Made by a program: the position numbers and the translations under genes | Notes under the pieces: model-generated | What the model saw: only the letters and a program-made list of their open reading frames with translations | What the model was told of the DNA's origin: nothing | Databases searched by the model: none | Part shown: positions 4,129 through 63,174 of the stretch, in pieces | How the letters are laid out: each line of letters starts with the position of its first letter | Numbering within the stretch: the stretch's first letter is position 1 | Assembly: GCA_037179385.1 (NCBI GenBank) | Contig: CM074195.1 | Location: 8,261,787-8,325,786 of the forward strand | Origin: Holothuria scabra | Taxonomy: Eukaryota; Echinodermata; Holothuroidea; Aspidochirotida; Holothuriidae | DNA: 64,000 bases | Direction: 5' to 3'

Positions 4129-4554
4129 CCGAGCGTCAGTGGCGTAGCTACTGGGGGCGGGGCAGGGGGGGGGCAAGTTGCCCTCCCCCCGGAAAAATTT
4201 TTGTGGAAATTTGATGAAAATGGGGAAATTTGATGAATCTTCTTATTATTACAAAAATTTCTGTTAGAATAAGAAATTGTGAGACATTTCTCCCACATAT
4301 ATCGTATTTTCATGCAACAAATTAACTCAGATTTCGTCAGTGTCGCATGAACCGGCCAAATTCGCGTTCCACAGAAATGTCCTCGCCGCGTAGCAGACTG
4401 AATGTTCTCTTGTGCTTGTATACGCACGGGGGTTATGATCAGTGCATTTCAGTGCACAGGAAGCTGTTATTCACGTGATACTTTGGGAATTCAGTAAAAG
4501 GATGTGAAAACTGACAAGTCACTTTATGGCAAGCGAAATGTCCAATAATTAGAA

Positions 4555-5145
4555 AAATCAAGTTTTTCGATCGAAAAACCAAGTTTATCGGTCGAAAACC
4601 AAGATTATCGGTCGAAAAACCAAGTTTATCGGTCGAAAAACCAAGATTATCGATCAAAACCATGTGTTCCGCCGATAAACTTGGTTTTTCGACCGATAAA
4701 CTTGGTTTTTCAACCAAAAATCTTGGTTTTTCGACCGATAATATTGGTTTTTCGACCGATAAACTTGGTTTTTCGACCGATAAACTTGGTTTTTCGACCG
4801 ATAAACTTGGTTTTTCGACCGATAAACTTGGTTTTTCGACCGATAAACTTGATTTTTCGACTGATAATCTTGGTTTTTCTAATTATTGAACAAACAACAT
4901 GTAATATCGGCCGAAAAACTTGGTTTTTCGAATCACTGGACAAACTGTTTCGAAAAACCAAGTTTATCGGTCGAAAAACCAAGTTTATCGATCGAAAAAC
5001 CAAGTTTATCGATCGAAAAACCAAGTTTATCGATCGAAAAACCAAGTTTATCGATCGAAAAACCAAGATTATCGGTCGAAAAACCAAGATTATCGGTCGG
5101 AAAACCAAGTTTATCGATTATTTCGAAAAACTTGGTTTTTCGATT
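4555..5145. repeat. 21-bp tandem repeat array, left arm, with internal inversions
   Basis: The unit is TTTTTCGACCGATAAACTTGG and variants. Orientation switches: minus-type units about 4555-4655, plus-type about 4670-4890 and 4905-4930, minus-type about 4955-5120, plus-type about 5125-5145. The array can therefore fold on itself as well as with the right arm. Because 21 is a multiple of 3, five of six frames stay open and yield spurious ORFs such as repeated GFSTDKL. Confidence 0.95.
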
Positions 5146-5449
5146 ACCATGGTGATTTGCCGGTACTACTTTCTGCGACCACGACATGCTAGATGGCGGC
5201 TCCTTCAAAATGATTGATACATATCATTTTGCATAGCTTAGGTCCGTAACTTCTAAAAAGAACATCATCAAGAAACAAAAATGGAATTAAGGTTGGCCAA
5301 AATCAGTGGCGTAACCAGACCTGACTGTCCGGGTGGGGGGGGGGGCAATAGCATAGAGGTTTCCCGATTTTGTACTAGTTGAGCTGTTGAGATGATGTAC
5401 ACTGTTTTAGTTTGTGGGTGTCTTAGGGCCTCAAGGGAAGTGTTGTGTT

Positions 5450-6319
5450 TAGTGGCGTCGGAGGCAATATTGAAGTGGGGGGGGGGGAGTACAGTTTTGG
5501 ACCATGCAACTCATTATACCCCATTGATCAAAAGGTACATTTTTATACTAAATTTTTTGCCTTTTCTACGAGCAAGAACAAATTTTTTTAAGTAATTCTG
5601 ATTTCTTTCTTTGGTGTGAACACTGCTATATTAGGTACATACCGAAAATTTGGGTCCTTAAACACATTTGTAAATATGGAGCTTGTATTGCAGGAAGCTT
5701 TCTGGGTTTCCCATGAGGAAGTTTAAAGAATTGGGGGATTACTGACGAATCTGTACCTCCTTCAAATATTGGTGGCAAATCTGAGAATGATTGCATTCTA
5801 AAGTCCTCCCGACTGTCTGGCAAAAAGCCGTTCGGCGAAACCAAAGTATAAACTGCTTCCAGAAGAAGCTAGATTGCACGATTACTCAGTCGTTGATGCT
5901 ACCTAATGTTATCTAAGGCATACGAACTGGCACTTTACGATTACATTTCAAAAGTTTCTCGAACTATTTAGACAAAATATTTCAAAATCAAGAGCTTTCA
6001 GTGAAGAAAATTTGGAATTCTATGAAAGACAGTGTACAAAAATGGCAATATAGCTGCGGTGTCTCTTGATGATGTAGTGTCACATGTGCTAAATATCCGA
6101 TTTTGTCATTTCCAGAGCTCGGAAAAGTTTGCCAAACTGATTTATGTGCGACAGCAAATGCACCTCACATTGCAGTTTAGTTGCAGCTCCTTTTGAGATT
6201 TGGAACAATGAAAAAAGGGGATTCATTACCCGGGAGGAGCGGAAGCATGGTTCCGCTGCTTCATTTTTCACGGGGGGGGGGGGTGTCACCGCCCCCAGTC
6301 CCCGCTTTCTACGCCTATG
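5450..6319. mobile_element. G-rich ~0.87-kb hAT-like repeat inside the foldback centre
   Basis: The left end is (T)AGTGGCGTCGGAGG plus a G run; the right end is TTTCTACGCCTATG. Flanks GTTGTGTT and GTGGGGTT could be a decayed 8-bp duplication. The interior (GGAGCTTGTATTGCAG, then CTGAGAATGATTGCA, TAATGTTATCTAAGGC, CAGAGCTCGGAAAAGTTT) recurs at 11480-12256, and in part at 10600-11190. Confidence 0.6.
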
Positions 6320-6944
6320 GTGGGGTTGTGGACTGCTCCCCTCCTCAAACACCACCATCTGAATATAATTTTGATTACTTTTCACCTCAAGTCCCTTTGA
6401 CAGAGAGTCGGGATGACTTTAAAAAAAGATTACTTTTCACATCCCAAATGCGAGCAAATTTTATGCAATATGGTCAACACTTACATGACTTGGTGTCTTC
6501 AGGTAAAACGAAAAATATACACGAACTCAAGTTTAACAATTCATATGTCAACATGAAAATATATCTGATATATTACATCCAAATAAACATTTTTTAAACG
6601 TTAAAGGAAAAAACGCTTTATGTTCTTGGTCTTCTTGCATGAACGGTCTTTAAATGTGGGCTGTATTGTCCTATAGTTAAGTTCCATTCGTCAGATGGTC
6701 ATATACTGAATGTATTGATGACTGGATCAAAGTCAATACTCGCAGAAATGTCGCTTTCTGTATAATGAGGAGAGCACGATAGGAAAGTCTTTCCTCCGAT
6801 AAAGTGGACCTCAGATATTATTATATTAACTTTAGGCGACTAAATGAATGTTCATATATTTTTCTAAATGAATGTTCATATATTGACCAAAACAGTGTTC
6901 CACGGAGGCAGATCATCCTTGCTTTTGATGTTATAGTTGGTCCA

Positions 6945-7095
6945 CTTTCTTTCTTTTCTCAATTTTCTCTTTTTTTCCTTCCCCATTTCTTTCCTCCCCC
7001 TCCTTTTTCCGTTTTCCTTTTTTCTTCTGCCTTTCTTTCCTTCCCTTCCCCTCCTTTTCCTCTTTTTCCTTTTCTCTTCTTCCATTCCTTCCATT
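6945..7095 (+). repeat. Polypyrimidine tract
   Basis: About 150 bases almost purely of C and T (runs such as TTTCCTTCCCTTCCCCTCC), in the foldback centre. It produces opposite low-complexity frames rich in Phe/Pro/Leu or in Lys/Arg/Glu; these are not genes. Confidence 0.9.
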
Positions 7096-7439
7096 TCCGT
7101 TTTTTGTGTCGGGATGGGGGCACGCTACTCACCGTTGAAATGAGCGAAGATTTGGCAGTCGACTAAGGAATGAAGCAACTTTAGGTTCTGACGATCTTTC
7201 TTGTCTGTTATGGTGCTGAAACAGTTGATAATCACAAACAAGAATATTATTTTGGCCAACCTAAATTCCATTTTTGTTTCTTGACGATGTCCTCTTTAGA
7301 AGTTACCAACGTTAGCTATGCAATATGATATGTACTGTACGTACGTACTGAGCTGCATGCATGTTGTTACATAGCCCATCAATTTGATGGAGTCGCATGT
7401 CGTGGTCACAGAAAGTAGAACCTGCAAATCACCATGGTA

Positions 7440-7970
7440 ATCGAAAAACCGGGTTTTTCGAAACAATCGAAAAACTTGGTTTTTCGATCGAAAAACTTGG
7501 TTTTTCTACCGAAGAACTTGGTTGCACTAATTATTGGACGTTTTGCATTGACAAACTTGGTTTTTCGACCGATAAACTTGGTTTTTCGACCGATAAACTG
7601 GGTTTTTCGACCGATAAACTTGGTTTTTCGACCGATAATCTTGGATTTTCGACCGATAAACTTGGTTTTTCGATCGAAAAACTTGGTTTTTCTAATTATT
7701 GGACATTCGGCTTCGAAAAACCAAGTTTATCTTTCGATATACCAGATAGATCGAAAAACTTGGATTTTCGACTGAAAATCCAAGTTTTTCGACCGATAAG
7801 CCAAGTTATTTTGAAAATCCAAGTTTTTCGACCGAAAGACCAGGATATGGAGATAATCTTGGTTTTTCGACGGATAAACTTGGTTTTTCGACCGATAATC
7901 TTGGTTTTTCGACCGATAAACTTGGTTTTTCGATCGAAAAACTTGGTTTTTCTAATTATTGGACATTTCG
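7440..7970. repeat. 21-bp tandem repeat array, right arm
   Basis: Same unit as the left arm, mainly plus-type at about 7440-7715 and 7855-7960, with inverted and degenerate units at about 7716-7840. The end motif TTTTTCTAATTATTGGACATT appears inside the arm (near 7690) as well as at the terminus, so whole arm ends have been duplicated. Confidence 0.93.
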
Positions 7971-10040
7971 CTTGCCATACACTACCGTAGACCCCCGAGG
8001 TTGTTATGTTCTTTTACAAGCTAGCAGTAGCTGTACGATTTTACTCTGTGTAAATAACGATGGATGGGGCTGAAACAATCCATGGCCAACGATAAACTTA
8101 AAGTTAATCTAGAAATTAGAATTAACGGGATCTGTTGGCACACTTACATTTTGTTACTTAGCCTAATCCTTGGAGGCTTACAAGCTAGTTCGGGAAAATA
8201 GCTTTCTGCTCACTTTGAGTGTAACAAGAAATGGACAATGAGTACCTTGTAGCCTTCTACACTTAACAGACTGCTTTTCTCACAGGATATCCTGTGTGAT
8301 CGAGCCACTATTAGGCCTCCTTAATGGCGTGCGAAGGGGAGACCATTGGGCATGCCCCCCTCACAGATGCCATTTTTTCTTTGTTCTAAAAATACGTAGT
8401 CTAACTTCATTACCACAGATTTTACTTCAAAAGATAGCATATGTGGCACTAGATTGCTTATAAGGACACCTAATTTTCAAAAACTTTCAAATGGGAAGGA
8501 TTGTCCCTGCAAGGTCTTTCAGTGATGTCATTTTTTTTAAATCCTACAAATAGACCTAGGCAAATTCTGTCAAATTCCAATTTTACTTAAAAAGGTAGAC
8601 TCTGTTTCCCACTGGTGGCATCGATAAAAAAGACTACATGTTTAGATTCTCTTTACAAAATAAATACGCTATTTTGACCATCTGAGGGGTCTGACTTTTC
8701 GAAACTTTCTTTACGCTCCGCGCCAACCAATGGTGGCGCTTCGCTCGGTCTTTTGGGCAAAATTACATTTTTTGGGTAAAATTAGCTCTTAACTCTCTGA
8801 TCACTTTGCAGTTTGCGAACATATTTTGAAGTGAGCATTTTATTGCAAACGACAAAAGAAGAATGCGACTGGCTAGATTCTTCGTATTAGCCTGGAAAAT
8901 GCTATTTCCGGCCATCTAAGGGGTCTGATTTTTCCAAATTTTCTCTACGCTCCGCGTCAACCAATGGTGGCGCTCCGCTTAGATACTCTTTATGACAAAA
9001 TAACATTTTGTGGCCAATGAAACCAAAAATACCGATCAATGCTCTTTTATTTTGACTCCTGAAAGTGTGCAAATTTAATGACAAGTTTTGCTTCGTAGTG
9101 TAGCATAAATGGCATAAGGAAATGCATGTCAAGACACAAAAGTTTCAGTTTTATCCTCATGAACAACCACGATTCAACTTTTAACACTGTTCCTGTCAAA
9201 GTCGAAAATCTTGCACCATTTTGCCTCTAGGCTCCTTGAAAACGTCAAAAAATTTCCGGACACCCCTCCCCTTAGACCATACTGCATGCCCCTCCCCTTC
9301 ATAGAAATCCTGCGTTAGTACATACAAATAAACCAGATATTGTTTATCAAAATAATATACTTTGTTATTTCCGATTGCTCTATGTTTTACTTTAAGATTA
9401 AAATGCACGTAACATTACAAAATGACATGGTAATGTTGTTATACTTGTAAGTTTGCATATTTTATATGAAATACATACACATTGACCGGGAAAAGTTTTG
9501 GGGAAATTTCATACCTTTGCCCCCCCCCCCCCTGGAAAAAATCCTAGCTACGCCACTGCCGAGCGTTAACACCTTTTTGCATCTCAGTCCTTCACAAAAA
9601 CAAACATTTTCTAAAGGTGCGATGGGGGTGGGGAAGATTTAGACCTCTCCCACTCCAGGACAGCGCAGTGCATGGCCTCCCCACACTTGCTTTTATTAGG
9701 CTAGGTTTAAGGGCGCTGAGTGTTGAACTGTGGTGAGAACGGAGAAGTAACGACATCAAGTGGAGCGACACAATCAGCTGACGCATAGCTCACAGAAAAC
9801 ATGGCTTAATATACCTCTCAGATTTCCGGCCACCCTATGAGTTTCAGCAGCAAAGTATTCTTTCGAAAACATGTAGGCCCAAGGCCTATGGAAATTTACA
9901 TTTCCACTATGCCACGTAATAAAGGAGGCGATTAGAGAATTTCAAATATGAACAATTCATCACTATTTATGCTGAATTCCAAAACAAAAAGGGACCCAGG
10001 CTGCCAGAATCCTAGAGTTTGGGCCGTATAATCCTTAGAG

Positions 10041-11190
10041 GCAGTGGCGTAGGAAGCAATATGAAAGTGGGAAGGGGGGGGGGGACGGCCGAACAAGTTT
10101 GCACCTCACCCCACCCCATTGACGACCGTTGTGCGTGATGCTCCGCATAAGCAATGAGATATTGAAAACAAGCCAGTGAGCCACAACTGGAAAATGGCCG
10201 TGGCCGACTCAACTTGAAGCAATAGGTTGGAAACTGGGCCGTAAAACTCCATCTAAGTAACTCACTAACTAACCTAACCCATTGACCAAAAGGTACATTT
10301 TTATGCTAAATTTTCCATTTTTTCAAGGAGCAAGAACGATTGTTTGGTTTTTTCTTTTTAAATAAAAAAAATGAAATGCTATGACTCATTTTTTCAAGTG
10401 AAACTGCGTACTGAAAAGGTGGAAATAAACGTGTTTCCTGCAGCCATGCTACACAAGACAACAATTCTAGTAAATCTGTACCCTCTGCAACAGTGACTTT
10501 TTTCGGAGGGGGGGGGGGGCGTTAGCACCCTAATTTTCCGATTTTTTGTTAAGTATGAATATACTATTGTATTAGGAGCGTCAAGTTGCAGCGCGCGGAG
10601 CGCACCGAAAAGTTGGGTCCTTTTAGACAAATATTTCTAAATATGGAGCTTGTATTGCAGAGAGTAGTTTAGATTCAGGGTTTCCTGTAAGGAAATTTGA
10701 ATATTTGGGTTACTATCGAAAAATCTGCGTTTCCTATTAGCATAATCTGAGATACAGCATGTCGACTGAAGATCGTTGTTGCAACATCATGTTATCTATT
10801 CTCGGCGACATTCATAAAGCTCCCGTATAGTTTGTTGCCTTTGTCAGACAAAATATTCAAAAGTAAGAGCCTGCACTGAAGAAAATTTTAGGGAAACGGC
10901 ACTGTAGCGGCTCGGGAAAGTTTGTCACTCCACTCCTTTTTGACCACTCACTGCATTAGGGGCTGTAGGCCTAATTTAGGGCCCGAATTAGCGCGAGGAA
11001 TATTTTGCCTTTTTAAAACTAATAATTACAAATACGGAACTTTTAGGAGGAAAAATTCGGAATTTTATGAAAGAAAAGTTGGGAAACCCACACTGTAATT
11101 CACTGGTGTCTCAAATGGCAAATTCCCGAATTTTTCACTTCTTCAAGGCAGGGAGACTGTTGCCCCCTGCCCCTTGTAGCTACGTCATTG
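10041..11190. mobile_element. G-rich hAT-like repeat, second copy, disrupted
   Basis: It begins GGCAGTGGCGTAGGAAGC followed by G runs and carries the same interior blocks as 5450-6319 (CATTGACCAAAAGGTACATTT, ATGGAGCTTGTATTGCAG). A SINE fragment sits at 10118-10280. It ends in a C-rich block with TAGCTACGTCATTG, possibly a decayed right terminus. Borders are uncertain; the right end might instead be at 12256. Confidence 0.5.
10118..10280 (+). mobile_element. SINE fragment (body and tail)
   Basis: 5'-truncated: CCGTTGTGCGTGATGCTCCG, AGCCAGTGAGCCACAACTGG, GGTTGGAAACTGGGCCGTAA, and a CTAACTAACCTAACC tail. Embedded in a G-rich hAT-like repeat. Confidence 0.75.
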
Positions 11191-11479
11191 CTCTGCAACA
11201 TTGAACATCGGGTAACACTTTGACATTTCAATAACTAAAGGCTCCACCTACACAGACTTCTCAACTGACATGGTTGAGAGTTAACTGATGATAGGTGTAT
11301 GTGAAATTATTTGAGTACGGTGGGCCTGAACTGCTTCCCTGTCTGAAATATGCTGTCTTGCTCGAAAGACTATCAAAGCGAAGCGCCACCTTCAGGAGGC
11401 GCGGAGCGTACAGAATATTTTGAAAAATAGAGGCTCTGAGACATCCGGAAATTGCATTTCTTGGGCTTGTAAGTAGCAC

Positions 11480-12256
11480 TTAAGCTACAGGGGGTATAAC
11501 AGACTTTTTAGGAGAAAGGGGTAAGCACCCAAATTTTCCGATTTTTTCTTCCAGGTGGGAACACCCATTGTTTTACGGACGTAATTTGCGGCGCGGGAAG
11601 GGCGGGAATTTTTGCCCCTTTTACGCAAATATATGTAGATATGGAGCTTTTAGGCTGCAGAATTGCTTTGGATTCCGGGTTTCCTGTAAGGAAATTTAAC
11701 GAGTTGGGGGAATACTGAAGAATCTGCACTTAGTTCGTATGTTTGTGGCAAATCTGAGAATGATTGCACGTGCGACGACTGAATCGTTTTTGCTACATAA
11801 TGTTATCTAAGGCTTTCGAACTGACGCTCTCCAATGACATTTCAAAAGTTTTCCAAACTTTGTAGTCCCTTTAAGACAAAATATTTCAAATTCAAGAACT
11901 TTCATTGGTAAACATTTGGAATTTTATGAAAGACAGTTTATAAAAATTGCAATATAGCTGCATGCCGATGTCTCTTGATGATGTGGTGTCACATAGTAGG
12001 CCTACGGTAAATATCTAATTTTGTCATTTTCAGAGCTCGGAAAAGTTTACCAAACTGATTTATGCGAGCACTACTGCATTTATTATTTCAGTTTTGCAGC
12101 GCGCGAAGCCGCCGGAAATTTTGCCGTTTTGAGATTTGCAAAAATAAAAAAAAGGGGTTTTCTGTCCCGGTAAGTGGGGAGCGAAAGCATCATGCTTCAA
12201 CCCCTCATTTTTCTTTGGGAGCTGTCGCCCCAAGCCCCACCCCATCCCCTTCCTGT
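11480..12256. mobile_element. G-rich hAT-like repeat, third copy
   Basis: Closely parallels 5640-6319: ATGGAGCTT, CTGAGAATGATTGCAC, TAATGTTATCTAAGG, CAGAGCTCGGAAAAGTTTACC, then a C-rich end with CCTATG. The left part (GTAAGCACCCAAATTTTCCG) also recurs inverted at 24880-24950. It includes a GC-rich block at 12095-12120. Confidence 0.55.
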
Positions 12257-19624: not shown

Positions 19625-21374
19625 CAGTGGCGTAGCTACTGGGGGGGAGGGGCAGGGGGGGAAAGTTGCCCCCCCGGAAATTTTTTGGGGAAATTTGATG
19701 AAAATGGGGAACTTTGATGAATCTTCTTATTATTACAAATATTTCACAAAATTTTTGTTAGAATAAGAAATTGTGAGACATTTCTCATACATAATTCGTA
19801 TTTTCATGCAACAAATTAACTCAGATTTCGTCAGTGTCGCATGAACCGGCCCAATTCGCGTTCCACAGAAATGTCCTCGCCGCGTAGCAGGTTGAATGTT
19901 CTCTTGTGCTTGTACACGCACGGGGGTTATGATCAGTGCATTTCAGTGTACAGGAAGCTGCTATTCAGGTGATACTTTGGGAATTCAGTAAAATGATGTG
20001 AAAACTGACAAGTCACTACCGTAGACCCCCGAGGTTGTTATGTTCTTCTACAAGCAAGCAGTAGCTGTACGATTTTACTCTGCGTACATAACGATGGATG
20101 GGGCTGAAACAATCCATGGCCAACGATAAACTTAAAGTTAATCTAGAAATTAGAATTAACGGGATCCGTTGGCACACTTAGATTTTGTAACTTAGCCTAA
20201 TCCTTGGAGGCTTACAAGCTAGTTCGGGAAAATAGCTTTTTGCTCACTTTGAGTGTAACAATAAATGGACAATGAGTACCCTGTAGCCTTCTACACTTAA
20301 CAGACTGCTTTTCTCACAGGATGTCCTGTGTGATCGAGCCACTATAGGCCTCCTTAGTGGCGTGCGAAGGGGAGACCATTGGGCCATGCCCCCCTCACAG
20401 ATGCCATTTTTTCTTTGTTCTTAAAAATACATAGTCTAACTTTATTAACACAGATTTTACTTCAAAAGATAGCATATGTGGCACCAGATTGCTTAAAAGG
20501 ACACCCAATTTTTCAAAAATTTTCAAAGGGGAAGGATTGTCCCTGCAAGGTCTTTCAGTGATGTCAATTTCTTTTAATTCCTACAAATAGACCTAGGCAA
20601 ATTCTGTCAAATTCCCAATTTTTACTTAAAAAAGTAGACTCTGTTTCCCACTGGTGGCATCGATAAAAAAGACTACATGTTTAGATTCGCTTTACAAGCA
20701 TAAATACGCTATTTTGACCATCTGAGGGGTCTGATTTTTCGAAATTTTCTCTACGCTCCGCGCCAACTAATGGTGGCGCTCCGCTTAGATAATCTTTATG
20801 ACAAAATAACATTTTGAGGCCAAGAAAAACCACAAGTATACCGATCAATGCTCATTTATTTTGACTCCTGAAAGTGTGCAAATTTAATGACAAGTTTTTC
20901 TTCGTAAGGTAGCATAAATGGCATAAAGAAATGCATGTCAAGACACAAAAGTTTCAGTATTACCCCCATGAACCACCACGATTCAACTTTTAACACTGTT
21001 TCTGTCAAAGTCGAAAATCTTGCACCATTTTGCATGTAGGCTCCTTGAAAACGTCAAAAAATTTCCGGACACCCCTCCCCTTAGACCATACTGCATGCTC
21101 CCCCTTCAGAGAAATCCTGCGTACGCCACTGCGTTAGTACATACAAATAAACCAGATATTGTTTACCAAAATAATATACTTTGTTATTTCCGATTGCTCT
21201 ATGTTGTACTTTAAGATTAAAATGCAGGTAATATTACAAAATGACATGGTAATGTTGTTATACTTGAAAGTTTGCATATTTTATATGAAATACATACACA
21301 TTGACCGGGAAAAGTTTTGGGGAAATTTCATACCTTTGCCCCCCCCCCTGGAAAAAATCCTAGCTACGCCACTG
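19625..21374. mobile_element. 1.75-kb hAT-like element, foldback-free relative of 4137-9558
   Basis: Termini CAGTGGCGTAGCTACTGGGG and TAGCTACGCCACTG, flanked by exact TTTGTTTC duplicates (19617-19624 and 21375-21382). The empty site is kept at about 51868-51884 as GGGAAACAAAGCATTCC on the opposite strand. It matches the other element from end to end, but has no foldback insert at the CAAGTCACTACCG junction near 20015 and lacks one of two CGCTCCGCG modules. Confidence 0.92.
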
Positions 21375-24470: not shown

Positions 24471-24554
24471 ATGGTATGGTATGGTATGGTATGGTATGGT
24501 ATGGTATGGTATGGTATGGTATGGTATGGTATGGTATGGTATGGTATGGTATGG
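24471..24554 (+). repeat. Pentanucleotide microsatellite (ATGGT)n
   Basis: About 17 uninterrupted units. Both strands are open in one frame (YGMVW and its antisense), which makes two false ORFs. Confidence 0.97.
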
Positions 24555-32333: not shown

Positions 32334-32689
32334 TTAACTAGCCCAATTTCAAGCCGGGACGGTTGGCTATTATTGCTGACATTTAAAGGTTTACAGTATA
32401 CTCCACAAAATGTAAACGGCGACGCTGGTCATTGTCCTAAATTTGACACATATAATTACAAGATGGCCTCTTTTGCCTTTTCTTTTTCAGGAAGCATGAA
32501 ATCATGGTGTCAACGCCGATAGAGATTGACTACACCCAAGAAGAGTAATTACAATCCGAAATTCGAAATCATCAGAATACCGAAAGAGAAAATGCTTAAA
32601 ACTCCTGTATGGGAAAGAAAATCTCATCGAATAATCAGAAGTGCAACATTGGGTCGAAATGAGAGGCAGTTCTTATAACATCTCCCGTA

Positions 32690-33754
32690 ATGGCCTTGAT
32701 AAGGATAAGTTCTTTCTCAATGTGCAAAGTTTGTGAGGTAACTTTTTTGGTTATACTTTTTCTGTGGATCATTGCGTCTCTCATGGAAGAGGTCGTTTAT
32801 GGAGATGACGAGGAAGAGACCGCCATCTCCAATCGCTTATTCCAGAGCAACCACAAAAACGAAATGAAACGGAACTTTACTTGTTACAATGACGATGACC
32901 CATTTTCCAGAAAATTATTTCCAGATAAGATCTTGAGAGAAAGAGGGTGTGAGCAGCGTTTGCCAAGTGTTTTGGTTTCAGGAGTCAAATATTGTAAAAC
33001 AGATCTGCTGACGTCAATATTACGTCATCATCCGTATCTAGTATTCCCCAAAACGGGCGATGTTTCATACTTTAGTGACTATTACGATATGGGTATAAGA
33101 TGGTACCGACGGCAGATGGGATTTTCGATCAGAGAACAGTTAAGCGTCGATTCAAGCTCCTCCTACTTCACTCACCCATCCGCCTCCGAGAGAATCTCCA
33201 GGGAACTTTTGGAGAATGTAAAGGTCATCGTACTTTTTTGCGACCCTGTGGTTAGAGCGTTGAGGGAATCGAGGGACATCAAACAGTCTCAAGAAGAATT
33301 GTTAAATGACATGGTGGTAGAATTACAAGACGATCAAACAAGCGATGACCACGAAGTCTGGGGGTGGTCCACCTCAGACCTAGGGGGGTCCTCTTCCAAT
33401 CCCATCATCTCCAAAGGCCTCTACATCAACTTCCTGCCGACATGGTACAGACATTTGCCAGAAGAAAATTTTTTCATGTTAGGGGAACAGAGACTCTTCA
33501 ATAATACCTCGGAGGTCTTGACCAGAATAGAAAAATTTTTAAAATTACCGTCCTTTTATGAATCTAAAATTTTTCGTGACCCATTCCAAGACTATATTTG
33601 TCTCAGAACATATGATTTTAATCCATTTTGTTTCTCTCAAAAGAAATCCGAGATAGCATTGGTAAACACCGCAGTGGAGTTGCAAGAACTTCAAAAGTTT
33701 TATGAGCCTTATAACCAGAAGTTACAAAAATTGTTTCTTGTGCCAGTTTTATAA
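32690..33754 (+). CDS. Divergent heparan sulfate 3-O-/N-sulfotransferase-like type II membrane protein
   Basis: 354 residues, complete, in one exon. The family transfers sulfate from PAPS to glucosamine of heparan sulfate in the Golgi. A short cytosolic tail and one membrane anchor (about 15-32) precede a stem with an N-glycosylation site (RNFT, 61-64). The sulfotransferase domain runs from about 91. The 5' PAPS site is seen as LPSVLVSGVKYCKT (K100, T104 kept, glycines lost). Then come SYFSDYYDMGIRWYRRQMG, a YFTHPSASERI motif, the 3' site KVIVLFCDPVVRALRES (178-194; C184 replaces the usual Arg of RDP), SKGLYINFLPTWYRHLPEEN, and a pair of late cysteines (304, 314). Family order and length fit HS3ST. 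The altered PAPS contacts suggest weak, changed or no catalysis. An acceptor-like site (TTCTTTTTCAG, ending 32490) may start this exon. Confidence 0.82.
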   Translation: MALIRISSFSMCKVCEVTFLVILFLWIIASLMEEVVYGDDEEETAISNRLFQSNHKNEMKRNFTCYNDDDPFSRKLFPDKILRERGCEQRLPSVLVSGVKYCKTDLLTSILRHHPYLVFPKTGDVSYFSDYYDMGIRWYRRQMGFSIREQLSVDSSSSYFTHPSASERISRELLENVKVIVLFCDPVVRALRESRDIKQSQEELLNDMVVELQDDQTSDDHEVWGWSTSDLGGSSSNPIISKGLYINFLPTWYRHLPEENFFMLGEQRLFNNTSEVLTRIEKFLKLPSFYESKIFRDPFQDYICLRTYDFNPFCFSQKKSEIALVNTAVELQELQKFYEPYNQKLQKLFLVPVL

Positions 33755-38030: not shown

Positions 38031-38449
38031 AGATATCACCTAGGCAAATAATAATCACAAAACTGTTGGTTCCTGCTATAGTGGTAGAATGTCCATGCTC
38101 CTATAGGCATTAAGCCAGAGGTTGTAGGTAGGCTTGGTGGCATGCATACCCCTTGGTAGGGAATGTACTTGCCTTAGAGCTTACTGCAACTTCTCAGGCA
38201 TGTTACAAGAAAAAATGTAGTATGTTAATACCCCAAAAACACTTCAGTTCAGTTTTTTGTCCAGTAATGCATTTCTAACCCTTCCTTCAAAAGCCTAACC
38301 CTTCCTTCAAAAGCTATCCCCTTCCTAAGCTAATTTCTGATGGATAAAATCTGAACTCTTTCTTAATTGTTTCTATCAAGGCTTTTTGCATGTCACTATA
38401 AAAGCTTGAAAAATAGATCATTATAAAAATTGCAAAGACTTAACACAAA

Positions 38450-38737
38450 TTGTTATTGTAAGACAAGCTTTAAGTACAAATTTGTTATTGTAAGACAAGC
38501 TTCAAGTACAAATCTGTTACTGTAAGACAATCTTCAAATACAAATCTGTTACTGTAGGACAATCTTCAAGTACAAATTTGTTATTGAAAGACAAGCTTCA
38601 AGTACAAATTTGTTATTGAAAGACAATCCTCAAGTACAAATCTGTTACTGTAAGACAATCTTCAAATACAAATCTGTTACTGTAGGACAATCTTCAAGTA
38701 CAAATTTGTTCTTGTAAGACAAGCTTTAAGAACAAAT
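38450..38737 (+). repeat. 32-bp tandem repeat, nine units
   Basis: Unit starts GTTATTGTAAGACAAGC and ends TAAGTACAAATTT, with T/C and A/G variants. Variant pairs recur in the same order (units 3-4 and 7-8 nearly identical), indicating a multi-unit duplication. Confidence 0.93.
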
Positions 38738-46400: not shown

Positions 46401-49400
46401 TGTATCTAATCCCTCCACAGGCATTTGAATTTTCAACAAGTGTGTAATATTTTTGTGACAGACAGGGATTATTTCTTGTTTTCCTCAACAAATATACAAA
46501 AAAATTGAACTGCCGCATAGGTACTTCAGCAAAGTGCTTTCTCCCCATTGATCTAACAATATCGAATTATCAAAATCAACTTAACCATGATAATTTTTGG
46601 TGCCAAATTTGGTTTCACAGATGGGATCTAATGACAGACCAGCACGCATATGTCATGTAGCATCTTAATAAAGAAGTAAAGTTCAAACACTTCCTCAACC
46701 ATAGTTCAGGTTGAAGTTTGGTTTCAAATAAGGTCCTTCCCTTAGTCGTCTCTTTTGATAGACAGGAAATACAGTAGGTAAGTTCTACAATCCCTAGCCC
46801 ACAGCAAGACATTTGACGATATTGTGGGGCACACCTAACGTTGTGGGGTACACCTAACGTTGTGGGGTACACCATACTGACTACGGGACACTAAGTTATA
46901 ACGTTGAATAAAATAACTACATGTCCCTTTTACGTATGGACAGGGCATGCTGCAATAACATTCTTAAGCAGATTGTCACTGCTGTCCATATACAAGGTCC
47001 ACCAACATATAGGGTCTTGAACATGGTTCACCCACATAGCTCCTGGCTATATAGGGTCTTGCACATGAAATTTTGGGCTTACTCAAGTGGTTTGATACAA
47101 ACAGATTGAACTAGAAATGTGTACCATTTTAATTCATATGAATGTAAATTTTGGTCAAATTCAGGAAGTAGAATCAAGGACAAGGTGTTGTTCTTCTATT
47201 TGTTTCCCATTTTGCCTGCAACGATGTAGACTCATTGTAAAAATTCCCCTCTTAGATGGCTGCAGTGTTGGATGCAAGATTCTCTGTTTACATTGACAGT
47301 CTGTGGATACACCTAACTTGTCCCCTCTTAGATGGCTGCAGTGTTGGATGCAAGATTCTCTGTTTACATTAACAGTCTGTGGATACACCTAACTTGTCCC
47401 CTCTTAGATGGCAAGGATAGATACAACCTGCACTGGCTTAATTTTGGCTCACTCATGATAAAATCAGCCCTTCTGACCCTCACAAATTCCCACCACTATC
47501 ATAAATCATATAGAAATTAACACCAGATCTCTTCCAAGAGGTCTCAACTTGCCGAAGAGAGTTACTGCTATGATATTGCTGCTTTAACAATTCTCACTTA
47601 GAAAACAAGATACAGGGAGTGCCATTTAATGCCATGTGTCACATGAAGGGTTGTCACCAAGCCTGGCAGCACCAGGCGGTGCTACTTGGCTCTCAAAGTA
47701 TCCACCAGATACTCGCCATCAATTTCAGCTTTGCCTCCCGGCACAATTTACTTACCCTAACTGAATAAAATTCTTAGATTTCTTTAGAATTTAGTGATAA
47801 TTCCTCATTTTTTGTAAGCACTCTCCAATCTGCAAAAATTTTTCAAAGGGGAGGTGGGACAATGACTACCCTTAAACCGCTCCCTACGGACAGTGACCAC
47901 AAATTACCCGGCTCTTAAATTGGTCTGGTGAAAACCCTGGTCACATGAATTACAAGTTTCTATTTTTGCCAAAATTTGTATTTGCCCTTCATGCCAATTC
48001 ATGGTAGTATTACACTTAGCCTACAACACGATGTCCATCCATCACTAAAATCTCTCTGGCTAAAACCCTTCTCAGACAGTTGTCTACATTGAACAATGTG
48101 CTATAAAGCCCTGTCCACACTATGCCACGCGACTTATTGCAACAAGACTGTCTTGTCGTGGTGGGCGACTGAAGTCCTTACTAGTTTACGAGCATAGTGT
48201 CTACATTATACCACAAACTGCAGGTCCATGAAGTGTCACGCAAAATTCTAATGTTCAGCATACTCTTAATCTGTTACGTTGAAGAGACAGGAATGTGTTC
48301 TGTCCATTTCGATTAACTGAACTTTGTGGACTTCATTTCAAAAGTCCCTCATTGTTGTCAGTTTCACGTTTCAGTTTCATGCGACCCGAACATGTTCCGT
48401 CGCATGAAACTGGGTTGCGCATCTGCTTGCAACTAGTTGCAAAGCATCCCACACTTTGCACTGCATCTGAACAATCTTGTTGCAATGCGTTACATAGCAT
48501 TGAGTCGCATAGCTTAGGCAGGGTTAAGAGAGCTTTGTTGCTAGGAACTTATTTACCATTCAACAAGACAAAAAAGAACTTCAGGTTAGTTGGTTATTCA
48601 TAGAGGTTTTTCTGCTCAGTTTCTAACCAACTGCTATAACCTGACCACAAAATTTTTCCTCGTTGTGGCTCACTGGTTTGTTTTCCCTACTCCATTGCTC
48701 CATTGCTTATTCTGTGCATCAAGCACAACAGCAAAAGGTTCCATTTTTTAAGTATTCAGGACGACTCAGCCAGGACTTGAACTCCCGACCTCCAAACTGC
48801 AAGTCAGATGTTCTAACCACTTCACAATGCAGTCAGTCGAAAGGACTTTGGGTGGCAAAAATTACCAACTTTGTGCAGCAAAGACTATGGAGGTGAGAAA
48901 GGAAGGAGAGAGGATGCGAAAGAAAAAATCTTACCACCATTTCTTGGGGATGGGAAGAAAAACACTGCACCAGGCGTGATGCAGTAGTTCCTTTCAAAAC
49001 AACTGAGAAACTTTGTGTTTGTCCTTCAATACAGCTGACATCCATTCTTTGTAGTGCATGTACATAGAACTGCCAGATTTGAAGAGGTTTGGAGAGGTAA
49101 GGATCCCTGTGAGATTAAAACAAGAAAAGGTAGAATAACAGACTTGAAAAAAAAAAGGAGTTTTACCTGGAATAAACAAGGGATCACAAGGATAAGAGCA
49201 GTGAATTTCTTTTTCTATGTGAACCTTATTTCTTGAAAAATAAAAGTTACTATGATAACTTAGTTTACATTAATACATATCATTCAATAGAGTACTTTTA
49301 CTGACCTCACATGCCCTGACCCTTTTAATGAGCAAGAATTAGTGTTACATATCGCTAGCTGGGAAGCAGCTGAGGACCAATGCAATGATGATTATAATTT

Positions 49401-61400: not shown

Positions 61401-63174
61401 GATTAGGAAGTTTGTGGACAATGGGGACTAATTGGTAGCTTGTTAGTTCAATGGATTGAGAAAAGATACTTGGGGGATAGGTGAAGAGAGTTGCAGAGGT
61501 GCTGCAGTTGGCTAATGAGTCTCAGAGGTGCTACAGTTGGCCAATGAATCTCAGAGGTGCTACAGTTGGCTAATGAGTCTCAGAGGTGCTACAGTTGGCT
61601 AATGAGTCTCAGAGGTGCTACAGTTGGCTAATGAGTCTCAGAGGTGCTACAGTTGGCGAATGAGTCTCAGAGGTGCTGCAGTTGGCTAATGAGTCTCAGA
61701 GGTGCTGCAGTTGGCTAATGAGTCTCAGAGGTGCTACAGTTGGCTAATGAGTCTCAGAGGTGCTACAGTTGGCTAATGAGTCTCAGAGGTGCTACAGTTG
61801 GCTAATGAGTCTCAGAGGTGCTACAGTTGGCTAATGAGTCTCAGAGGTGCTACAGTTGGCTAATGAGTCTCAGAGGTGCTACAGTTGGCTAATGAGTCTC
61901 TGAGGTGCTACAGTTGGCTAATGAGTCTCAGAGGTGCTACAGTTGGCTAATGAGTCTCAGAGGTGCTACAGTTGGCTAATGAGTCTCTGAGGTGCTACAG
62001 TTGGCTAATGAGTCTCAGAGGTGCTACAATTGGCTAATGAGTCTCAGAGGTGCTACAGTTGGCTAATGAGTCTCAGAGGTGCTACAGTTGGCTAATGAGT
62101 CTCTGAGGTGCTACAGTTGGCTAATGAGTCTCAGAGGTGCTACAGTTGGCTAATGAGTCTCAGAAGTGCTACAGTTGGCTAATGAGTCTCAGAGGTGCTA
62201 CAGTTGGCTAATGAGTCTCAGAGGTGCTACAGTTGGCTAATGAGTCTCAGAGGTGCTACAGTTGGCTAATGAGTCTCAGAGGTGCTACAGTTGGCTAATG
62301 AGTCTCTGAGGTGCTACAGTTGGCTAATGAGTCTCAGAGGTGCTACAGTTGGCTAATGAGTCTCAGAGGTGCTACAGTTGGCTAATGAGTCTCAGAGGTG
62401 CTACAGTTGGCTAATGAGTCTCAGAGGTGCTACAGTTGGCTAATGAGTCTCAGAGGTGCTACAGTTGGCTAATGAGTCTCAGAGGTGCTGCAGTTGGCTA
62501 ATGAGTCTCAGAGGTGCTGCAGTTGGCTAATGAGTCTCTTTGCAACATGCTACTTTTTAAATTGTACTTGTACACTGTTTTCTGTTTAATCTCTTTAGGT
62601 GAGCTGTCAGAGCTACACATGTGGTGAGGTTTAATGAAGATGCTTTTACCCTATGTTACCTTACCATAGCTGATAAAAATAAAATAAAAAGTCAGTTCAA
62701 CTTAATTTCACCATAAATTTTGATGGAACTTTATCATCAACCAATTTTGTGAAATTTTGAAGCCACTTTAGTAATAACGACTTCTGTCTAGCTTTTTTAT
62801 TCTTTCCATGATCTTTTAATCTGAAATGACTCACACCAAACATGACAGGGTTCTTCCTTTGGAAAGAAAATTTTTTAACCAATTATAAAAGGTATATACA
62901 TCATTCCTACCTTGAGGTATCATATTTATAACCTTGTCATCACGAACACATGCAAGTATCATTGCAACTTTTACCAATTCCTTTTGCATCTGACAATCCT
63001 TCAAAAAATGTCAAACTGACCTTTGACCTACCCCAGAATTACCTCAGAGCTAATACTTCTATCAAAATATAAAATGTTTGCTCATATCATGACAACAGGC
63101 AATAGTTTCACTTACCTCTGAATTTCTATTGTCTTCAAGTCTCTTGTTCTTTGTACCTTTTCTTCTTTCTTAAG
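40274..63174 (-). CDS. NPHP4: Nephrocystin-4 (NPHP4), 3' third of gene, 12 exons
   Basis: Nephrocystin-4 is a scaffold of the ciliary transition zone and acts with NPHP1 and RPGRIP1L; it is mutated in human nephronophthisis. Joining exons 63116-63174, 60598-60765, 59662-59860, 58387-58467, 55492-55648, 53478-53560, 50726-50811, 48935-49106, 45287-45395, 44084-44202, 42472-42567 and 40274-40417 gives one frame of 490 residues ending in TGA. All introns obey GT-AG and all phases match. The identification rests on colinear matches to the vertebrate C-terminal region as I recall it: [49 protein letters not shown]-like [36 protein letters not shown] and [10 protein letters not shown]. The region is known to be rich in Ig/MSP-like beta-sandwich domains. 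The human protein is about 1426 residues, so roughly two thirds is missing to the right. No convincing polyadenylation signal was seen close below the stop. Confidence 0.93.
40795..41050. repeat. Dispersed repeat, copy in last NPHP4 intron
   Basis: Partner of 53145-53410. The surrounding stretch 40418-42471 otherwise shows only AT-rich intron sequence. Confidence 0.5.
42472..42567 (-). CDS. NPHP4: NPHP4 exon
   Basis: 96 nt in phase 0/0, encoding residues 412-443: [18 protein letters not shown], then [13 protein letters not shown]. It starts the last Ig-like domain. The acceptor is CTGTCTTCAG and the donor GTGAGT. Confidence 0.93.
42617..42886. mobile_element. ~300-bp TTAAAGG-ended MITE, right end lost
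   Basis: ACTTAAGCCCCTCCAACAAC, TCAGGATGAGTATACAAGG and CCAATTGAGAACTT; the TTTGGGGTGAG end is gone. NPHP4 intron. Confidence 0.7.
44084..44202 (-). CDS. NPHP4: NPHP4 exon
   Basis: 119 nt, encoding about residues 372-411: [33 protein letters not shown]. The acceptor is TGATATCAG and the donor GTCAGT. It runs in phase into KISYKNPY. Confidence 0.93.
44472..44763. mobile_element. CAGGGTT-type hAT MITE, copy 1
   Basis: 292 bp with inverted ends CACGGTTGTCACC and GTGACAATCCTG; flanks CCCTTGAC and CCCATGAC match at 7 of 8. About 80% alike by eye to 47646-47939, sharing CCTAACTGAATAAAATTC and AAGGGGAGGTGGG. Located in an NPHP4 intron. Confidence 0.82.
45287..45395 (-). CDS. NPHP4: NPHP4 exon
   Basis: 109 nt, encoding about residues 336-371, [20 protein letters not shown] through KYMYINVV. 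It completes the Ig-like unit begun in the previous exon. The acceptor follows GCTTTATTCCAG and the donor is GTATCC. The terminal aspartate codon is split. Confidence 0.9.
46826..46873 (+). repeat. Short tandem repeat in NPHP4 intron
   Basis: ACACCTAACGTTGTGGGG(T) repeated about 2.5 times. Confidence 0.8.
47246..47412 (+). repeat. 76-bp tandem duplication in NPHP4 intron
   Basis: Two near-identical units from CTTAGATGGCTGCAGTGTTG to ACACCTAACTTGTCCCCT plus a partial third. Units differ by a single seen base (TTGACAG against TTAACAG), so the duplication is recent. Confidence 0.93.
47646..47939. mobile_element. CAGGGTT-type hAT MITE, copy 2
   Basis: 294 bp; ends AAGGGTTGTCACC and GGTGAAAACCCTG, with exact GTCACATG duplicates at 47638-47645 and 47940-47947. 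Located in an NPHP4 intron. Confidence 0.88.
48598..48833 (-). mobile_element. tRNA-derived SINE in NPHP4 intron
   Basis: Head type 1 with a mutated A box (TGTGAAGTGGTTAGAAC) and B box GAGTTCAAGTCCTGGC. The body is diverged. It lies about 100 bases past the donor of the exon at 48935-49106, in the same orientation as the gene. Confidence 0.8.
48935..49106 (-). CDS. NPHP4: NPHP4 exon
   Basis: 172 nt, encoding about residues 278-335: [20 protein letters not shown] followed by SHPQEMV. This is the strongest single match to vertebrate NPHP4. The acceptor follows TTTTAATCTCACAG and the donor is GTAAGA. A SINE ends about 100 bases beyond the donor, in the intron. Confidence 0.95.
50726..50811 (-). 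CDS. NPHP4: NPHP4 exon
   Basis: 86 nt, encoding about residues 250-278: [17 protein letters not shown], then KKFYIVIY. The acceptor is a long T-rich run ending TTGACAG; the donor is GTGAGT. The last codon is split with the next exon, giving YLDPYL across the junction. Confidence 0.92.
51584..52066 (-). mobile_element. TTAA-flanked MITE, uninterrupted copy
   Basis: 483 bp from TTAAGGTCATTACAGG to CCTTCCCTTTAA, in an NPHP4 intron. It is the inverted relative of the interrupted copy at 19123-21732 and contains both unoccupied target sites. No coding potential. Confidence 0.85.
53145..53410. repeat. Dispersed intronic repeat, also at 40795-41050
   Basis: Both copies share TATTTCTGTC/TTCTTT, AATAATGYATCTGARCA, CCACTTCCTAAAATTTCCT and GGGAATTCAAATTT-like blocks in the same order. 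No terminal repeats recognised. Confidence 0.55.
53478..53560 (-). CDS. NPHP4: NPHP4 exon
   Basis: 83 nt, encoding about residues 222-249 and including [17 protein letters not shown], the conserved cysteine-containing motif. The acceptor follows TTTTTTCTCCTAG and the donor is GTAAGT. Confidence 0.93.
55492..55648 (-). CDS. NPHP4: NPHP4 exon
   Basis: 157 nt, encoding about residues 170-222. It carries [19 protein letters not shown] and [19 protein letters not shown], a nearly gap-free match to the vertebrate protein. The donor is GTAGCT and the acceptor ends CATCTAG. Confidence 0.94.
55916..56220. mobile_element. ~300-bp TTAAAGG-ended MITE, intact
   Basis: Best copy: TTAAAGGCCCAATTCTCTC to GCAGACTGGCCCTTTAA, 305 bp, inverted ends matching at most positions over ~28 bases. 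NPHP4 intron. Shorter fragments of the same family lie at about 45168-45270 and 59908-60007. Confidence 0.85.
56500..56747 (-). mobile_element. tRNA-derived SINE in NPHP4 intron, sense to the gene
   Basis: Head type 2 (TTGTCTAGTGGTAGAGCATC, then GGTTCTATTGTC), body and tail well conserved. It is an inverted neighbour of the copy at 57447-57692. Confidence 0.82.
57447..57692 (+). mobile_element. tRNA-derived SINE in NPHP4 intron, antisense to the gene
   Basis: GTGTTTGGTCTAAC head, B-box-like TTTGATTCCC, the body GTTGTGCGTGATGCTCGAC and GGTTGGAAACTGGGCTGTAA, and a (CTAA)n tail. It can pair with 56500-56747 in the pre-mRNA. Confidence 0.82.
57791..58030. mobile_element. MITE with TTAAAGGACAAAAGCAGTC ends, copy 2
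   Basis: 240 bp; the right end AAGACTGCCCTTGCCCTTTAA is the inverse of the left. NPHP4 intron. Confidence 0.78.
58387..58467 (-). CDS. NPHP4: NPHP4 exon
   Basis: 81 nt in phase 0/0, encoding 27 residues from GPSVRQQN to EGKTVM. This is a weakly conserved linker placed by phase and order. The acceptor follows TTACTTATACAG and the donor is GTAAGT. The next exon continues [14 protein letters not shown]. Confidence 0.85.
59662..59860 (-). CDS. NPHP4: NPHP4 exon
   Basis: 199 nt, encoding about residues 76-142. TPVEEGMF and [18 protein letters not shown] match the vertebrate positions directly after the NPYNV motif. The acceptor is TTTTAG and the donor GTAAGT. Confidence 0.93.
60598..60765 (-). 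CDS. NPHP4: NPHP4 exon
   Basis: 168 nt, encoding about residues 20-76 of the fragment. It contains [20 protein letters not shown], one of the best conserved stretches of the family and the first strand pair of an Ig-like domain. The acceptor follows TTTTCCAACAG and the donor is GTACGG. The final serine codon is split across the next intron. Confidence 0.93.
61489..62538 (+). repeat. 29-bp minisatellite, ~36 units, in NPHP4 intron
   Basis: Unit TCTCAGAGGTGCTACAG plus TTGGCTAATGAG. Units are nearly identical. Variants are CTGAGG for CAGAGG at about 61899, 61986, 62102 and 62305, and CTGCAG for CTACAG near both ends. Spacing between the CTGAGG variants is 3, 4 and 7 units. Confidence 0.97.
63116..63174 (-). 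CDS. NPHP4: NPHP4 exon (most 5' exon in window)
   Basis: 59 nt, entering in phase 0 and leaving two bases (AG). It encodes a basic, charged segment starting [19 protein letters not shown]. The acceptor is a pyrimidine-rich run ending CAG; the donor is GTAAGT. It joins in frame to the exon at 60598-60765 across an intron holding the 29-bp minisatellite. No further upstream exon could be recognised in 63175-64000. Confidence 0.8.

Follow-up and report, generated by a model that had tools for sequence, protein, structure and literature searches.

Foldback elements with IS3EU-type ends and 6-bp target duplications in the genome of Holothuria scabra

The 64,000-nucleotide stretch of Holothuria scabra DNA analysed here (the window, C17:8261787-8325786 in an assembly of 1.19 Gb in 31 contigs) carries a foldback element at positions 4525-7979, which we interpret, with a probability of roughly 0.85, as a non-autonomous, foldback-armed DNA transposon of the IS3EU superfamily. 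We place it in this class because its ends and the 6-bp duplication of its family fit the published signature: in the parts of the two sources available, IS3EU elements have TA..TA ends and usually 6-bp duplications (PMC10045372), and those of fungi have TAYGG..CCRTA ends, terminal inverted repeats (TIRs) longer than 30 bp and 6-bp duplications (PMC12730594). The window element reads TATGG...CCATA from end to end, the 33 bases at each end form a perfect inverted repeat, with no mismatch (one + and one - match within the window), and continue into long arms, and the 6-bp duplication recurs among the copies of the family. Other elements of the same genome encode IS3EU-type transposases and bear similar tandem-repeat arms.

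Borders, target duplications and arms of the family

A foldback transposon with borders at 4524 and 7980 had been proposed in a preliminary description made from the letters of the window. The element is real, as attested by its exact TIRs and by borders that are common to 294 termini in the genome, and only its limits move inwards, by one base on each side. The 28-bp end has 294 matches (145 + 149) at no more than two mismatches, spread over many contigs, and a reversed-pattern control has none. We placed 169 of these termini, which number at least 294, from the listed places, two longer patterns (51 and 92 places) and the fetched loci; they form 50 neighbouring +/- pairs with a median length of 3,204 bp (35 of 2.8-4.0 kb, six below 1 kb and nine above 4.5 kb). 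Twenty loci of 10 kb were read. Of the 43 ends in these and in the window, 41 agree with the 28-bp end at every base, and two differ from it by one and two mismatches; for one end this conservation is partly ascertained, because the loci were those that matched the left end best. Sites inside the arms that resemble the end at 5-6 mismatches are excluded from this count.

Target duplications were compared in 20 two-ended copies, 19 from the fetched loci (two of them in L015) and that of the window, with the one-ended L009 and L023 excluded. A 6-bp duplication is exact in 14 of the 20 and present in 17 at no more than one mismatch, against 3/380 when the left flank of one copy is set beside the right flank of another. 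Exact flank repeats of 3, 4, 5 or 7-10 bp occur in none of the 20 copies, and of 2 bp in three. The misses at one mismatch are the window copy and, with two mismatches each, L025 and L015b, the pairing of the last being uncertain as it lies inside a nested cluster. The target sites are palindromic around ACGT, with A at position 2 in 27/40 and C at position 3 in 24/40, both strands counted. The duplication of 3-4 bp previously read for the window element thus gives way to one of 6 bp: seen alone it reads as 3-4 bp because its left copy has decayed to CACTT, shifted by a lost base relative to the right copy CACTAC.

The insertion interrupts a hAT-type element, and a related copy at 19625 does show the pre-insertion site, as the preliminary description had recognised: 4137-4523 aligns with 19625-20017 at 91%, and 7980-8745 with 20014-20785 at 95%. 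Both hAT-type copies, so labelled by their termini CAGTGGCGTAGC and duplication length, are flanked by exact 8-bp duplications (CCGAGCGT around the interrupted copy, TTTGTTTC around the second). The second copy shows the empty site at a paralogous locus and is not allelic to the first.

By its long inverted arms of short tandem repeats, the window element belongs structurally to the foldback class. Blocks of the 21-mer lie in both orientations inside each arm, which bears out the earlier reading that they are mutually inverted; in the left arm, 4694-4860 and 4950-5116 are 94% complementary over 167 nt. The right arm includes internal copies of the end motif CTAATTATTGGAC. The order of the blocks could be compared in the 17 of 22 copies that have both arms and at least part of the common centre, which excludes L009 and L023 (one-ended) and L026, L028 and L015b (without the common centre). 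Arm A has three alternating blocks in 15 of the 17, L024 and L025 being the exceptions, and arm B has an identical block order in all 17, while unit numbers vary between copies (among the 15, for example, the first block of arm A has 4-9 units). Block reversal is therefore a family trait. In many copies, internal occurrences of the end motif CCAATAATTAG mark the borders between blocks in arm B, a pattern suggesting that modules of end plus array were duplicated as the arms grew.

Of the 22 copies read, 18, among them that of the window, have over 1 kb of the centre in common. This shared stretch falls into two subfamilies, with mean pairwise Kimura two-parameter distances of 2.1% (36 pairs, nine copies) and 4.5% (36 pairs, nine copies; range 0.7-11.5%), and of 8.2% between them. 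In the window itself, several stretches of 10275-12064 are 80-86% similar to the foldback centre, such as 11778-12064 to 5884-6146. At positions 889-8247 of L015 (C6:48914188-48921546) copies of the family are inserted into one another, one of them inside a 21-mer array with the exact 6-bp duplication TAATCT and another in an end-like spacer. The longer copies L021 and L022 share about 5.4 kb of extra interior, part of it also in L028, which is possibly captured DNA. We considered it as a remnant of an autonomous element and rejected this, three open reading frames (ORFs) of L021 having no Pfam match. L023 contains foreign reading frames.

IS3EU elements of the same genome

The genome holds at least 91 matches to rva_4 (PF24764), found among the 150 of 329 candidates that were scored; a 307-aa query gave 89 such matches, with 112/112 candidates scored. 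An ORF of 430 aa in L035 matches rva_4 at 1.6e-35, and an integrase encoded in this genome is, among the named matches, 61% identical to a protein of Holothuria leucospilota. The D, D and E of a DDE site (D222, D281 and E321 of L040) are common to three rva_4 proteins and are presumably catalytic. Three rva_4 elements could be traced to both ends (Table 1), and all three end in TACGG...CCGTA, are flanked by exact 6-bp duplications and bear tandem arrays in both arms; for L048/L050 and L043/L051 the reading has gaps of 779 and 749 bases, respectively, at the transposase. The transposase frame is open in L049+L040, no stop interrupts the matches of L043/L051, and the reading of L048/L050 contains one TGA and one TAA.

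In the L035-L048 group the 5' flank was read at 10 loci (the L035 type, counted once, and L040-L048), and seven of them have arrays of 19-24 or 41 bp; the seven are not independent, because L042-L048 were picked as relatives of L040 and the ends of L043 and L045 are nearly identical. Under a stricter rule (period 19-24, at least four copies) six of the 10 have arrays, and a background of 170,081 bases has none. In L035, 94-bp arrays lie close to the end and one of 21 bp lies in the interior; the 5' flanks of L041 and L044 lack arrays of 19-24 or 41 bp. Of a further family, L042/L052 (C2:10780115-10781581), only the 5' end is seen: a TACGGCGGC end was recognised by eye at C2:10781581, and next to it 21-bp arrays extend for about 1.4 kb. 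A search for the right end of the L035 group did not find it. At C8:19157333-19160330, two IS3EU transposase matches lie in opposite orientation about 1.3 kb apart.

Features of the window

Table 1. Features of the window element, its insertion site and the three rva_4 elements traced to both ends.
Feature	Position or length	Strand	Details
hAT-type host element, 5' part	4137-4523	+	91% identical to 19625-20017; terminus CAGTGGCGTAGC
Left target duplication, damaged	4520-4524	+	CACTT; from the sequence and the 6-bp family rule
Left terminal inverted repeat	4525-4557	+	TATGGCAAGCGAAATGTCCAATAATTAGAAAAA; exact inverse at 7947-7979
Left arm block 1, 21-mer forward	4552-4659	+	5.2 copies (Tandem Repeats Finder, TRF)
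Left arm block 2, 21-mer inverted	4672-4879	-	9.9 copies (TRF)
Left arm block 3, 21-mer forward	4950-5118	+	8.0 copies (TRF)
Left arm, inner non-repetitive part	5140-5303	+	inverted repeats I11, I25; partner 7249-7440
Centre, transposase not found	5304-7248	+	~90-97% identical in other copies; tblastn with IS3EU ORFs
Right arm, inner non-repetitive part	7249-7440	-	inverted partner of 5140-5303
Right arm, mixed 21-mer array	7468-7952		both orientations; 23.9 copies (TRF); arm maps
Right terminal inverted repeat	7947-7979	-	exact inverse of 4525-4557
Right target duplication	7980-7985	+	CACTAC; continues as empty site at about 20014
Second hAT-type copy, without foldback element	19625-21374	+	paralogous empty site
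rva_4 element L049+L040	5,420 bp		ends TACGGAAGCCC; 21-bp arrays, 4.4 and 8 copies; duplication GTTTTG
rva_4 element L048/L050			ends TACGGAAGCGTATTG; 41-bp arrays, 18 and 5.3 copies; duplication CATTAC
rva_4 element L043/L051			ends TACGGAAGACTAATG; ~23-bp arrays, 14 and 16.5 copies; duplication GGAAAC

Elsewhere in the window there are a 29-bp tandem array at 61494-62538 (36 copies, 97% matches by TRF), a 32-bp array at 38445-38737 (9.2 copies), ATGGT repeated 16.8 times at 24471-24554 and a 76-bp repeat at 47245-47412 (2.2 copies). A 363-aa open frame at 32663-33754 resembles a heparan sulfate 3-O-sulfotransferase-like protein; its only named match is a sulfotransferase-like protein of Apostichopus japonicus (52%), and a Pfam search with it gave no match.

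Mobilisation, rival explanations and known systems

We propose that an IS3EU transposase, a DDE integrase of the Pfam rva_4 kind, would recognise the TATGG...CCATA ends and act in trans, moving the element most likely by cut-and-paste or a related process into 6-bp targets resembling NACGTN, which would generate the 6-bp duplications. The ~21-bp arrays immediately internal to the ends, with two helical turns per unit, are probably extra transposase-binding sites, which this unit length would place on one face of the helix. These arrays would have expanded in the foldback family, with blocks inverted in an ancestor, probably by duplication or self-insertion, and then inherited, so that each arm would be a set of hairpins; slippage or unequal exchange may later have altered unit numbers. 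More tentatively, and with the odds in our estimation somewhat against it, the ~21-bp arrays inside both ends of an IS3EU lineage of this genome could be a multi-site landing platform for the transposase that expands and inverts freely, foldback elements arising repeatedly from autonomous IS3EU parents and the alternating order of the present family being maintained instead of reflecting decay.

Several observations weigh against assigning the family to IS3EU and to such a partner. A copy with a transposase in its centre, as envisaged in the preliminary description, did not come to light: among the 169 termini placed, none of 84 transposase places lies inside the 50 pairs, only two lie within 20 kb of any terminus, and no TATGGCAAGCGAAATGTCC-ended copy with a transposase was found. 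Searches by tblastn detected no transposase in the window or in L001-L028, which include the five long copies L009, L012, L021, L022 and L023, either with the ORFs of six loci, whose only match was an ORF from the flank of L035 in the flank of L028, or with the transposases of L035, L040 and L041, for which the positive control worked; a Pfam search with a sample of six ORFs from L009, L012 and L021 gave no match. The ends of the family, TATGGCAAGCG, are similar and not identical to the TAYGGAAG or TACGGCGG of the rva_4 families, the IS3EU-type transposases being present in similar-armed relatives with slightly different ends. As for these relatives, the array survey was biased by the choice of L042-L048 and does not sample loci at random; in another rva_4 group, L029-L034, 0/6 loci have arrays of at least four copies; and the ends of L041, L044, L046 and L047 were looked for and not found. 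A genome pattern search with TATGGCAAGCGAAATGV gave four places. The transposase place C20:9222310, 17 kb from a terminus, is a short match. The terminus C1:55476413, 12 kb from the rva_4 match L034 (which has one TAG and one TAA inside), was judged unrelated to it, a retroelement-like ORF adjoining by eye.

Among the alternatives, the closest is an element that has lost all its genes and stems from some other integrase-like class whose duplications are of 6 bp, such as Polinton or a relative of Ginger: in the available part of one source (PMC10045372), Polinton shares the 6-bp duplication and GingerRoot is grouped with IS3EU. We regard this alternative as improbable, given that the ends read TAYGG..CCRTA and that the tandem-armed relatives in the genome encode rva_4 transposases. 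Slightly less credible still is a foldback element of Mutator type, like FB, Tetris or Tm1, moved by a Mutator-like transposase. Such elements share the gross anatomy of ours, namely long inverted arms of tandem repeats, a variable centre and no coding capacity, as far as the accessible part of the Tetris paper describes them (PMC4079207), but the duplication is of 6 bp here as against 8-10 bp for Tetris (none of the 20 copies is exact at 8, 9 or 10 bp), and the ends match the IS3EU signature. Finally, a local rearrangement of a 21-bp satellite, forming inverted blocks by chance and without transposition, would account for unit numbers that differ freely among copies, but this alternative, raised in the preliminary description, is refuted by the exact borders and 6-bp duplications shared by 294 termini on many contigs, and by the clean empty site in the window.

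Foldback arms of short tandem repeats are a feature of FB of Drosophila, with 31-bp units and 9-bp duplications, and of TU of the sea urchin, also an echinoderm, with units of ~15 bp and 8-bp duplications; Galileo, of the P superfamily, makes 7-bp duplications, a length at which 0/20 of our copies are exact. The kinship with FB and TU implied at first is not supported, as termini and duplication match IS3EU and the IS3EU elements of the genome bear similar tandem-repeat arms. Galileo likewise has long, internally repetitive inverted arms, in the portion of its description available (PMC3573991), and their tandem repeats are reported to contain extra transposase-binding sites (as cited in the accessible part of PMC4079207). 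Tetris of Drosophila virilis is, according to the same portion of that source, also non-autonomous, with modular inverted arms containing internal tandem repeats and a variable centre, but its repeats are of ~220 bp, its duplications of 8-10 bp and its placement is with Mutator, in contrast to the alternating 21-bp blocks and 6-bp duplications found here (PMC4079207). The IS3EU group (IS3EU/GingerRoot), as partly described, is alike in its TAYGG..CCRTA ends, TIRs longer than 30 bp and 6-bp duplication, and unlike the window element, in which no transposase was found and which has long foldback arms with inverted 21-bp blocks; the portions of the IS3EU descriptions that we compared do not mention arms of this kind. 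Among 5.39 million open-access papers, Repbase and subscription papers being outside this scope, 'IS3EU' and 'foldback' co-occur in one, where 'foldback' stands solely among the references, and 'IS3EU' and 'subterminal' do not co-occur; IS3EU families with repeat arms may be deposited in Repbase.

According to the part of the source available (PMC4079207), most foldback elements have been assigned to Mutator, Galileo being among the exceptions, and no transposase is known for Tetris. Here, similar tandem-repeat arms are found on IS3EU elements with an open transposase frame, beside what would be an extreme non-autonomous derivative. The function of such arms thereby becomes testable, through the binding of transposase to the 21-bp unit and through the relation between unit number and transposition.

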